Shown piece after piece: positions 29,014 to 34,029 of a stretch of 64,000 nt of DNA (positions within the stretch are counted from its first letter, which is position 1; each line of letters begins with the position of its first letter). A program made the translations under genes and the position numbers. Source of the stretch: Thermococcus bergensis. Its GTDB lineage: Archaea; Methanobacteriota_B; Thermococci; Thermococcales; Thermococcaceae. The DNA lies in the NCBI RefSeq assembly GCF_020386975.1, contig NZ_JABFNK010000001.1, positions 186,001-250,000 on the forward strand, in the 5' to 3' direction. Under the pieces are notes generated by a model, which was not told the origin of the DNA, searched no databases, and saw only the letters and a list, made by a program, of their open reading frames with translations.

Positions 29014-29187
29014 ATGAGAGATACTCAAAAGTTTACGTGCCCATTTTGCGGGTACAAAGCAAAAAACTTGGAAGAGCTAAAGCAGCACATCCTTGAAAAA
29101 CATACGCTGAACAGGGAAGATGTAAGAGGTATTAGGTTCATTCAGGGCGTGTTTAGTTTCACCCCCTGTTATTTAAACAGTATTTGA
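29014..29187 (+). CDS. Small C2H2-type zinc-finger protein with IS-derived tail
   Basis: 57 residues as it now stands. A single C2H2 finger: FTCPFCGYKAKNLEELKQH then ILEKH (C-x2-C ... H-x4-H). IS copy 3 inserted after codon 44; the frame runs on into the element and adds 13 residues (GVFSFTPCYLNSI) before a TGA at 29185. Joining across the element, the original protein was 46 residues ending FIQKH. The finger is untouched, so function may persist. Promoter: TATTTATATTA near 28970. Such small fingers are common in archaea and their viruses; probably a regulator. Confidence 0.75.
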   Translation: MRDTQKFTCPFCGYKAKNLEELKQHILEKHTLNREDVRGIRFIQGVFSFTPCYLNSI

Positions 29188-30013
29188 CTCTGAGGAGGAT
29201 TTTCAGACCATAACACATTACCCCAAGCAGGATTCGGGTTACAGTAGTCTTTTTCAGAAAACAGGGGATCCTACTGCCAAACCACGTTGTAAACGCACCC
29301 CAGAACCCCTCATGAGGATTCCTATGCCTGTACTCTTCTTCAGAAAACACTCTGTCTCTCTTCTTACTACCAAAACCACCTGGAGCGTTCTTAGTTTTCT
29401 TAACAATCGGCCGATAACCCTTTTCCACCACAGTGTTCAGAACTTTCTTTGAATCATAAGCCCCATCAGCATAAAAATTCCCAGAACCCCCCGGCAGGAG
29501 TTCAATCAGCTCGTTCTCAGAAGTTGTGATCTTCACAGCAACCGGATACAGTAAACCCGGCAGGATTCTCGTTATTGCCTGAACTTCTATCCTACCCTTT
29601 TTTTATTTGTAATAATGGTTGAGTCTGCTTGAGTGCTGGCGTAGGGTAATTTCTGGAGTTTTTTCAGGAGGTGGTTTGTCAGTTCTTCGAGGTTCAGCTT
29701 TTTCTCCCAGTTGTGGAGGGTTGAGTAGTGAATGTTTGCTCCGAAGAATTTTCTGCCGTAGTGCTGGGCGTCTCTGAGGGGTAGGTTGTAGTATTGTTTA
29801 AAGAGGAGTATTGCCAGTATTGTTTTTACTGGAAATTTTTTGGATTTTGGCAGGTTCTTCAGCTTTCCTTCTGATTCGAAGTCTGCTAAAACGTCAAGAA
29901 TTGCGAATGCCACGCTTTCAGGGTCTTTGAGTCTGTGATCCCATCTGGGGATCACGACAACCACCTGAAAGAATTCAGCAAAAACCCTAATAAAGGTTAC
30001 TATAAACACGCCC
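29145..30013 (-). mobile_element. 869-bp DDE insertion sequence, copy 3
   Basis: Inverted relative to copies 1 and 2, with the same terminal repeats and a 10-bp duplication GGTTCATTCA at 29135-29144 and 30014-30023. Its transposase-start end faces the queD promoter. It interrupts the last three codons of a zinc-finger gene. Differs from the other copies at a few bases (Arg to Gln near the N-terminus, Ala to Val next to the end of frame 1). Confidence 0.95.
29159..30009 (-). CDS. Transposase of IS copy 3 (-1 shift at A7)
   Basis: As copy 1, with the A7 run appearing as T7 on the plus strand at 29598-29604. One substitution gives FFQVVVV for FFRVVVV. In this copy the open frame could extend upstream past the element boundary into flanking DNA, but the start inside the inverted repeat, or a later GTG, is equally likely. 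Confidence 0.85.
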
Positions 30014-30024
30014 GGTTCATTCAA

Positions 30025-30040
30025 AAACATTAAAAGCTTC
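30025..30040 (+). promoter_or_regulatory. TATA-like element of queD next to IS copy 3
   Basis: ATTAAAAG at 30029-30036, preceded by AAAAC, lies 35-40 bases before ATG 30070 and would drive queD. The IS ends at 30013, so 15 bases separate it from the TATA core, the same spacing as at the other copies. Confidence 0.45.
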
Positions 30041-31492: not shown

Positions 31493-31626
31493 CTCCCTAC
31501 GAGACTATCTACTTTTGACAATATTGCCCCATTTCTGAGCATTCTTGAGGGAAGCTTTAGCATCTAATGTCCGCTTCCGAAAAACTATTTTAACCACTAT
31601 AATGTAACTTGACTGGAGGTGTGAGT

Positions 31627-32379
31627 ATGAAACCCATTATTGGAATTGTGGCTTCTTTTGACTGGGAAACCGGTGCCCTTACCATAAACGACACTTACGT
31701 TAAGAGGATTAGAGATGCTGGAGGGATACCCGTAGCAATTCCGCCGCTTCTGGGGATAACAGATGTTATCGAAGCGATAGATGGGCTTATAATTCCCGAA
31801 GGTCCCGATATTCACCCAAGATATTACGGGGAGACACTCTCTGATAAAATTGAATGGCTTGATGTACAGAGGGATGAATTTGAACTTGCCCTCATTAAAG
31901 TTGCCCTTGAGAAAGGCCTCCCCATGCTGGGAATAGGCAGAGGGGCACAGGCAATAAACGTAGCCCTCGGAGGGAGTTTGTATCAGGATGTCAGTGAAAT
32001 TCCAAAGGCCATAAGACATAACTGGCTCAGGGATGGTGAATTCCTTGTGCATCCAGCGGCGAAAGTTCATGAAGTGAGAATAAAGCTGGATTCCCTGCTC
32101 TTTGAGGTACTTAGGGAGAACCTAAGCGTTGAATCGACAAGTGAGGTTTTTATAGGAGTTAACAGTTTTCACCACCAGGCCATTAAGAGGCTCGGAAGCG
32201 AAGTAAAGCCGGTAGCCTATGCGGAGGACGGAATAATTGAGGCCATTGAAGTGGAGGGAAAATTTGCGATAGGGGTTCAGTGGCTAGCGGAATATCTTGA
32301 TGAGATGGAGCCTCTTTTCAGAGCCCTTGTAGAGAAAGCCCTTGAATACAAAAAGAAAAAAACTGGGCATATTAGATGA
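31627..32379 (+). CDS. Peptidase C26-like protein lacking catalytic Cys and His (pseudoenzyme)
   Basis: 250 residues with the class I glutamine amidotransferase-like fold of gamma-glutamyl-GABA hydrolases (PuuD). The family blocks are present: IIPEGPDIHPRYYGE, the nucleophile elbow, INVALGGSLYQDV, VNSFHHQAIK. But the elbow reads LGIGRGAQ (G104 where LGICRG has the nucleophile Cys) and the triad region reads GVQWLAE where GVQWHPE is usual. Both catalytic Cys and His are missing while the fold is kept, so it is probably a binding or regulatory protein. ATG 31627 follows GGAGGTGTGAG. Confidence 0.85.
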   Translation: MKPIIGIVASFDWETGALTINDTYVKRIRDAGGIPVAIPPLLGITDVIEAIDGLIIPEGPDIHPRYYGETLSDKIEWLDVQRDEFELALIKVALEKGLPMLGIGRGAQAINVALGGSLYQDVSEIPKAIRHNWLRDGEFLVHPAAKVHEVRIKLDSLLFEVLRENLSVESTSEVFIGVNSFHHQAIKRLGSEVKPVAYAEDGIIEAIEVEGKFAIGVQWLAEYLDEMEPLFRALVEKALEYKKKKTGHIR

Positions 32380-32389
32380 AGAACTCTCT

Positions 32390-33259
32390 TCAGCGAATTT
32401 CTCTGTGGAGGAACTGTAATACCAGATGAGAGCCATCGCAGCTGGGGTATGAATAGTAGCCCTCCCTGCACGAACCAAATGTTATTCCCTTTGCCTCCAC
32501 CTTTTCTCTTGCCTCTTCAAGGATTTTGAGTCTCAGTTCTTTGGGTAGATAATAGTAGCCACCTATCCTCTCTCCCTTTTTGTAGAGGGGTGCGAGCTTT
32601 TTCATTAGCTCGGGGAACTTTGCCTCCATTCTCTTCCATGAATCTGGCCGGAGTTTTAGAGTTGACACCGTTATGTGGGACACAAAGCTCAGCGCATTGA
32701 GGGTTTCATCAAAGTCCTCCCATGTGTAAAATGGTATTATCGGGTCGATTCGAGCATAGACAGGAATGCCGTCTTTCTTTGCCTTTTTCAATGCTTCGAT
32801 TCTTTCTCTCGGCAGGGGTGCGTTTGGCTCAAGGAGTTTTGCTTTTTCTTCATCCACGGTGGTGACCGTAATTCCGACAGCACATTTTAGAGTTTTCAGG
32901 ATGTCCAGATCTCTCTCGAACAAATTGGATTTTGTCAAAATCAGGCATGGGATGTCGTATCTTTTGAACAGCTCAAGCACCTTTCGGGTTATTTTCAACT
33001 CTTTGTCTATCGTCGGATACGGGTCGGAGGAGTAGGAGAGAGCTACAATGAACCTTCTGTCGAACTTCCGGAGCTCCCTTTCTAAGGTGGGGAGAAGGTT
33101 TTCCTTTATCCTAACCTTGAAGGCTTTGGGGATGTAAGAGGTTATGTAGCAGTAAACGCAGGCATGGTCGCAACCCGTGTAGATGTTGAGGGTGTATTTA
33201 AAGGGGCATGTGCAGAGCTTGGACTTCCATGGGTCAAAGAGCCGTATATACATATACAT
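32390..33259 (-). CDS. Radical SAM protein, spore-photolyase-like (SPL family)
   Basis: 289 residues. The Fe-S motif is CDHACVYC (C30, C34, C37), followed by IVALSYSSDPYP, LTKSNLFERDLDIL, and a triose-barrel pattern (ITVTTVDEEKAKLLEPNAP). A C-terminal Cys pair (GSCREGYYSYPSCDGSH) may hold a further site. These features match the archaeal SplB-like group annotated as DNA repair photolyases, though substrates are unproven. TTTTAAA lies about 25 bases before ATG 33259 and no ribosome binding site is seen, so the mRNA may be leaderless. Divergent from osmC. Confidence 0.8.
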   Translation of the reverse strand: MYMYIRLFDPWKSKLCTCPFKYTLNIYTGCDHACVYCYITSYIPKAFKVRIKENLLPTLERELRKFDRRFIVALSYSSDPYPTIDKELKITRKVLELFKRYDIPCLILTKSNLFERDLDILKTLKCAVGITVTTVDEEKAKLLEPNAPLPRERIEALKKAKKDGIPVYARIDPIIPFYTWEDFDETLNALSFVSHITVSTLKLRPDSWKRMEAKFPELMKKLAPLYKKGERIGGYYYLPKELRLKILEEAREKVEAKGITFGSCREGYYSYPSCDGSHLVLQFLHREIR

Positions 33260-33311
33260 TGCTTCGCAAAAGACATTTAAAAGCTTCTTGCCATTCTATG
33301 CTGGTGGTTTT

Positions 33312-33710
33312 ATGAAGGGAACTGTCAAGTGGATAGGGGATTCCAAGTTTGAAGCACTTACAGAAGAGGGCGGAAAGATAGTGTTCGGAGAGAATGGCAT
33401 CTTCCCGATGAAGACACTTCTCCTCAGCGTGGCTGGATGTACAGCCATAGATGTGGTGATGATACTCCAGAAGATGCGCGAGCCTATTGAGAATCTTGAA
33501 GTCGAAATAAGCGGGGAAAGAAGGGAAGAACATCCAAAAATCTACACCAAAGTCCACATTCACTACAAAATCTATGGGGATGTGAAGGAGGAAAAAGCAA
33601 AAAGGGCTATAGAGCTCAGCCAGGAAAAGTACTGCTCTGCTTCAGCCCATCTAAAGCTCAGCGGGACTGAGGTTACTTACTCCTACGAGATTATTAAGGA
33701 AAAGGTTTAA
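33312..33710 (+). CDS. OsmC-family peroxiredoxin-like protein
   Basis: 132 residues. The two redox cysteines lie in SVAGCTAIDV (C43) and QEKYCSASAHL (C108), with the conserved Glu/Arg region near GNGI/FPMKTLLLS. OsmC/Ohr proteins are dimeric thiol peroxidases of organic hydroperoxides. Start ATG 33312 (GGTGG seven bases before). The DUF1884 gene starts 34 bases after its stop on the same strand, so the two probably share a transcript and possibly a physical assembly. Confidence 0.88.
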   Translation: MKGTVKWIGDSKFEALTEEGGKIVFGENGIFPMKTLLLSVAGCTAIDVVMILQKMREPIENLEVEISGERREEHPKIYTKVHIHYKIYGDVKEEKAKRAIELSQEKYCSASAHLKLSGTEVTYSYEIIKEKV

Positions 33711-33744
33711 GTCTCTTTTTCCAATTTTATCATGGTGAACCTAG

Positions 33745-34029
33745 ATGAGGGGAGAACTAATCAGGGTTTTAAGTGCTGTCGAAGAAAAGGCTAACGAGCT
33801 TAAGATGGACGGATTTGAGCCGGATCTGGTGCTCTTTGGAAAAGAAGCCTACGAGTTTTTGAAAGAACAGGTCAACGAAGAGTTTGGAGGAGAAGATGGA
33901 ATTTCTGAAATTTCCGGACTCAAGGTTAAGATTGTTGAAGAATTTGGAAAAGACGCTGTCGTTATTGACTCAAAAGTTCTGGGCCTGGGGCTTGGAGGGG
34001 CCAAACGGGTGAAGGTTATCAAAGATTAA
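33745..34029 (+). CDS. DUF1884 (PF08967) protein, truncated-encapsulin (family 4)-like
   Basis: 94 residues. The sequence GELIRVLSAVEEKANELKM, DLVLFGKEAYEFLKEQ, ISGLKVKIVEEFGKDAVVID and LGLGLGGAKRVKV agrees with DUF1884, a family found mainly in Thermococcales. From memory of the encapsulin literature, this family corresponds to the HK97 A-domain alone and has been called family 4 encapsulin, usually encoded beside a putative cargo enzyme. The OsmC gene just upstream fits that arrangement. Whether it makes shells, rings or other assemblies is not shown by sequence. The 3' end overlaps the convergent CitG-like gene by 11 bases. Confidence 0.75.
   Translation: MRGELIRVLSAVEEKANELKMDGFEPDLVLFGKEAYEFLKEQVNEEFGGEDGISEISGLKVKIVEEFGKDAVVIDSKVLGLGLGGAKRVKVIKD

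Follow-up and report, generated by a model that had tools for sequence, protein, structure and literature searches.

The A-domain proteins of encapsulin Family 4 were sorted by Andreas and Giessen in 2021 (PMC8346489) into four operon types, one of which is the OsmC type; hydrogenase and OsmC operons were grouped in subfamily 4A, and GAPDH and DeoC operons in subfamily 4B. Systems of the OsmC type often include a MarC gene as well (PMC8346489). The same authors hypothesized that the enzymes are complexed with, or enclosed by, the A-domain protein, and they cite a proteomic study of P. furiosus for a complex between GAPDH and its 4B protein. According to a 2024 review (PMC11202242), Families 3 and 4 have yet to be experimentally characterised. 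In the literature searched we found no experimental study of Family 4 of later date, and the main text of a T. kodakarensis interactome paper (PMC12016516) mentions neither encapsulin nor OsmC.

The window, a stretch of 64,000 nucleotides from Thermococcus bergensis, carries an OsmC-family gene that is followed, after a gap of 34 bp and on the same (+) strand, by a gene for a DUF1884 protein. A preliminary description had drawn attention to this spacing and shared direction, and both are confirmed by the coordinates, as the identities of the two genes are by their Pfam matches. Its choice of OsmC as the partner of DUF1884 agrees with the published place of OsmC as a Family 4A operon partner (PMC8346489). 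Its further suggestion of a novel assembly had been anticipated, since the OsmC operon type was published together with a cargo or complex hypothesis in 2021 (PMC8346489). The gene pair is real, conserved and of an already published kind; because both genes are conserved across the Thermococcales, their pairing is not a matter of chance. The features of the locus are listed here in order of position.

31609..32379, + strand: peptidase C26 / GATase gene, which in genera other than g3 accompanies the radical SAM gene and OsmC
32390..33259, - strand: radical SAM gene, divergent from OsmC and its neighbour in all loci examined
33267..33283, + strand: BRE/TATA-like element of OsmC, CAAAAGACATTTAAAAG, conserved in the genus
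33312..33710, + strand: OsmC-family gene, YhfA-like, 132 aa, with its ATG at 33312 and its stop codon ending at 33710
33699..33713, + strand: weak BRE/TATA-like element, GAAAAGGTTTAAGTC, which overlaps the stop codon of OsmC; its score of 3.9 does not exceed that of shuffles in this genome
33734..33738, + strand: Shine-Dalgarno-like GGTGA preceding the A-domain gene, its GGTG core found in all aligned relatives
33745..34029, + strand: Family 4A A-domain gene (DUF1884, PF08967, NF041190), 94 aa
34019..34915, - strand: CitG-family gene (PF01874), convergent with the A-domain gene (11-bp tail-to-tail overlap), a neighbour kept outside genus g3

Farther upstream, at 29159-30030, two neighbouring minus-strand ORFs resemble a broken transposase, as in the relic of an insertion sequence.

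The A-domain protein and the OsmC protein

The 94-residue protein matches the PF08967 profile with 111.3 bits; the family is now named ENCP4 in Pfam, "Putative type 4B encapsulin shell protein". Among the NCBIfam subfamily models, 4A (NF041190, cut-off 90 bits) gives 158.6 bits as against 40.1 for 4B and 22.6 for 4C, and by these profile scores the protein clearly belongs to the 4A subfamily. Its best sequence match, and the only strong solved relative, is PF0899 of P. furiosus (2PK8, E 2.2e-30), which was crystallised as a dimer (per PMC8346489). An AlphaFold model of the window protein (built from 23 sequences, mean pLDDT 79, with the last ~13 residues poorly modelled) likewise finds its best fold match in 2PK8, with a TM of 0.85. 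Nearly all further top PDB matches of the model are HK97-fold capsids or encapsulins, with TM values (query length) mostly of ~0.45-0.58 and E-values of 0.1-1.5; individually these E-values are weak, but the predicted fold is consistent across the matches. Taken with the NF041190 score, this bears out the earlier statement that DUF1884 is an HK97 A-domain known as a Family 4 "encapsulin", and since the matches are so consistently HK97, the protein does not appear unrelated to that fold. It is, at 94 aa, an A-domain only and not a complete HK97-fold shell protein with P-domain, E-loop and N-arm. The nearly invariant residues of 4A include R2, G3, L5, I6, R7, L9, E13, E14, K15, N17, E18 and L19, and the N-terminal helix motif RGxLIRxLxxxEEKxNEL is nearly invariant in OsmC-linked, hydrogenase-linked and unlinked copies alike. 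No PF08967 match was found outside the Thermococcaceae in the other families searched of the same phylum.

The OsmC protein (PF02566, 61.1 bits) is nearest to the YhfA type, although its 98 bits against the YhfA equivalog model fall under the cut-off of 138. Cys43 and Cys108 are present in 81/81 orthologues, and these two conserved cysteines would fit an active thiol peroxidase. Sampled genomes carry further OsmC paralogues, so that published data on T. kodakarensis OsmC (TK0189) may not refer to this orthologue. A targeting tail or cargo-loading peptide, which the preliminary description had suggested looking for, was not found on the 4A-linked OsmC proteins of any linked genome: these proteins are 130-136 aa long and end within a few residues after the OsmC domain, and the longest C-termini (139-144 aa) all come from genomes in which OsmC and 4A are unlinked.

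Linkage across the Thermococcales

We surveyed 94 Thermococcales genomes, of which 74 were classed as good (>=90% complete, <=5% contaminated). All 74 good genomes contain 4A, usually as a single copy. An orthologue of the window's OsmC is found in 72 of them, a MarC relative in 65 and a hydA match (E<=1e-60) in 70, the last count including ~40%-identical paralogues. The neighbourhood of 4A was read at 87 loci, where the upstream context is OsmC without MarC (21 loci), OsmC-MarC-4A (38), MarC alone (12), hydrogenase (8) or none of these (8). The enzyme gene upstream of 4A, on the same strand, is OsmC in the window and at 59 of the 87 loci (68%); at the other 28 OsmC is unlinked, and 4A has another partner or none. 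The adjacency of OsmC and DUF1884, whose conservation the preliminary description had made a touchstone, is common, and a conserved unit is not supported, since elsewhere 4A occurs with MarC, with hydrogenase or alone.

The linkage is found at every locus of g1, the window's genus (10/10), g5 (6/6) and g6 (1/1), and at none in g2 (0/3) and g3 (0/9); in g1 the two genes are directly adjacent, with a gap of 33-34 bp, at 10/10 loci, and in g3 4A adjoins the hydrogenase gene hydA at 8/9. On the 4A tree OsmC linkage changes at least eight times, a number that is approximate because the tree, built on 93 columns, leaves 42 of its 80 inner branches open; g1 and g3 each form one group, and the rows cluster largely by genus whatever the neighbour. 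OsmC stands beside the divergent radical SAM gene at 84/84 OsmC loci, also where 4A is elsewhere, and a convergent CitG gene lies beside 4A at 77 loci outside genus g3, so both OsmC and 4A keep another neighbour more faithfully than they keep each other.

Some details of gene order deserve mention in their own right. The divergent pairing of radical SAM and OsmC is more constant than that of OsmC and 4A. At locus L111 (G046) 4A has the radical SAM gene immediately upstream, again divergent, without OsmC or MarC between them, as if both had been deleted; a search of this genome, which is 74% complete, gave no OsmC-domain gene. At L054, L058, L060, L071 and other loci of genus g4, MarC and 4A are separated by one or two copies of a ~290-aa protein of unassigned family that bears a hydrophobic stretch at its N terminus.

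One alternative reading is that the soluble [NiFe] sulfhydrogenase is what 4A serves in every species, with its adjacency to OsmC incidental. The hydA-linked loci of g3 agree with this, as does a close hydA homologue in the window genome, unlinked to 4A (C3:87828-89105), yet we consider it very unlikely: G019, 99% complete and in one contig, has 4A and no hydA match at E<=1e-60, which contradicts hydrogenase as a universal partner, and G087 keeps 4A with only a ~42%-identical hydA homologue. The MarC membrane protein, the immediate upstream neighbour in many Thermococcus genomes, might instead be what 4A works with, and the MarC-4A adjacency does survive at 12 loci with OsmC elsewhere. Such a role seems barely credible, however, as MarC matches are missing from 9 of the 74 good genomes, all of which keep 4A, and as MarC is unlinked to 4A in the window genome itself (C2:66530-67153). 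MarC as a universal partner is contradicted by those genomes. OsmC fares no differently in G011 (99% complete), where 4A lies beside hydA and no orthologue of the window's OsmC was found, OsmC being present only as paralogues of 25-28% identity. Rate covariation, given radical SAM, was 0.26 for 4A and OsmC versus 0.50 for 4A and the control gene CitG; this weak test gave no signal of a special 4A-OsmC coupling above the control.

Family 4B offers a comparison within the window's genus, where the 4B gene overlaps the end of deoC in an operon tighter than that of OsmC and 4A. The 4B gene is deleted or decayed in five genomes of this genus, with its partner DeoC intact in each: G074 and G085 have lost it, G078 and G083 keep it in decayed form, and it is deleted behind deoC in the window genome (G000, L190), where DeoC is intact at C5:1182400-1183056 and apparently only the last few 4B codons are left. 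Loss of an A-domain gene can thus leave the presumed client in place.

Promoter-like elements and the transcription unit

A BRE/TATA motif was trained on the upstream regions of the OsmC and radical SAM genes and then applied to 4A. It exceeds the shuffled 95th percentile in 80/83 OsmC upstream regions, these being the training set. Over the 110 nt before 4A, the best promoter-like site falls at -50..-42 in 63/88 loci. In genus g4, 4A elements above the shuffled 95th percentile occur in 4/4 genomes with OsmC without MarC, in 9/9 with MarC only and in 6/7 with none of these neighbours, and in g5 the sequence GAAAAACTTTAAATG stands at -49 before 4A in 6/6 genomes, within the 63-bp gap between OsmC and 4A. 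Control genes located inside or behind other genes scored 0/9 for HydA and 0/17 for the gene behind CitG. Most relatives carry an element in front of 4A whose spacing is constant, and an ancestral promoter of its own is thus probable for 4A. The weak element of the window, which overlaps the OsmC stop codon, sits at the position of the strong elements in g4 and g5 genomes; because OsmC and 4A have moved closer together in the window's genus and the promoter of 4A looks weak there, some co-transcription of 4A from the OsmC promoter is plausible in it. A single transcription unit, proposed earlier from the short distance and shared direction, is thus not supported as a general rule, the element before 4A being present in most relatives though weak in the window's genus.

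These observations bear on the possibility that OsmC is a true client of 4A, that is, that the OsmC dimer, lacking a targeting tail, is bound and stabilised by facets or dimers of 4A and the two genes are co-transcribed, as the 2021 hypothesis and the preliminary description would have it. The operon type is published (PMC8346489), the linkage recurs at 59/87 loci, and the window's genus combines a short gap with a weak internal promoter. We nevertheless judge it unlikely, in view of the 28 unlinked loci, the presence of 4A in G011 without this OsmC, the missing tail, a rate covariation not above that of CitG, and the strong promoter-like element that 4A has to itself in other genomes where the two genes are directly adjacent, such as those of g5. 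The unlinked loci, missing tail, promoter-like element and covariation likewise weaken the idea of a single unit with a sheltered cargo. As 4A is kept whether or not OsmC adjoins it, a dedicated system of shell and cargo is probably not what the pair represents.

A probable core protein and its described relatives

We hold with moderate confidence that 4A is a core protein that depends on no particular partner, and that the OsmC beside it acts independently. The two genes would be neighbours by descent from an ancestral block, GATase - radical SAM (divergent) OsmC - (MarC) - 4A (convergent) CitG, which different lineages would have broken at different points, the direction of change being our inference. 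4A would be a small HK97 A-domain protein that forms homo-oligomers and that ancestrally had a promoter to itself, and its target or structural role would be common to all Thermococcaceae; it would not be a dedicated shell for the enzyme encoded upstream, nor form a specific complex with OsmC. OsmC would most likely act alone as a two-cysteine hydroperoxide reductase. Several points count against a core protein of this kind. Linkage at 68% of loci across several genera exceeds rare chance and could reflect function, and the direct adjacency throughout g1 occurs just where the upstream promoter-like element is weak. The GAPDH-4B complex of P. furiosus (via PMC8346489) indicates that A-domain/enzyme complexes can exist, and gene order says nothing direct about protein contacts.

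More tentatively, and with somewhat more doubt than belief, we suggest that 4A is no encapsulin with cargo, but a virus-derived HK97 A-domain turned universal Thermococcaceae core protein, which might act with a single shared target by way of its invariant N-terminal helix; the "operon types" would then be drifting neighbourhoods. Family 4 cargo assignments rest largely on gene order, and the survey shows that the partner of 4A is poorly predicted by its gene neighbourhood. The survey favours unbiased pull-downs over presuming an OsmC or hydrogenase cargo, and the naturally "unlinked" and "partner-less" species are candidate test strains.

Among described systems, the Family 4A OsmC operon type (PMC8346489) resembles the locus in its two proteins, their order and strand, and the 4A subfamily. 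It differs in often including MarC, which is absent at the window locus and encoded elsewhere in the genome, and the operon or cargo relation proposed for it is not stable across the 94 surveyed genomes. PF0899 of P. furiosus (2PK8), a hydrogenase-type 4A protein, is the best match in both sequence and fold, but its gene adjoins sulfhydrogenase whereas that of the window adjoins OsmC. The encapsulin of T. maritima (3DKT) and HK97 capsids share the A-domain fold (TM by query length 0.55-0.58, E 0.3-0.9); compared with the ~265 resolved residues of 3DKT, the 94-residue window protein is without P-domain, E-loop and N-arm, and its neighbour is without a cargo peptide. On the OsmC side, the YhfA-type proteins 1ML8, 1VLA and 2E8C are full-length homologues that show no notable difference beyond the equivalog score below its cut-off, and both cysteines are also found in the 1VLA and 2E8C alignments.
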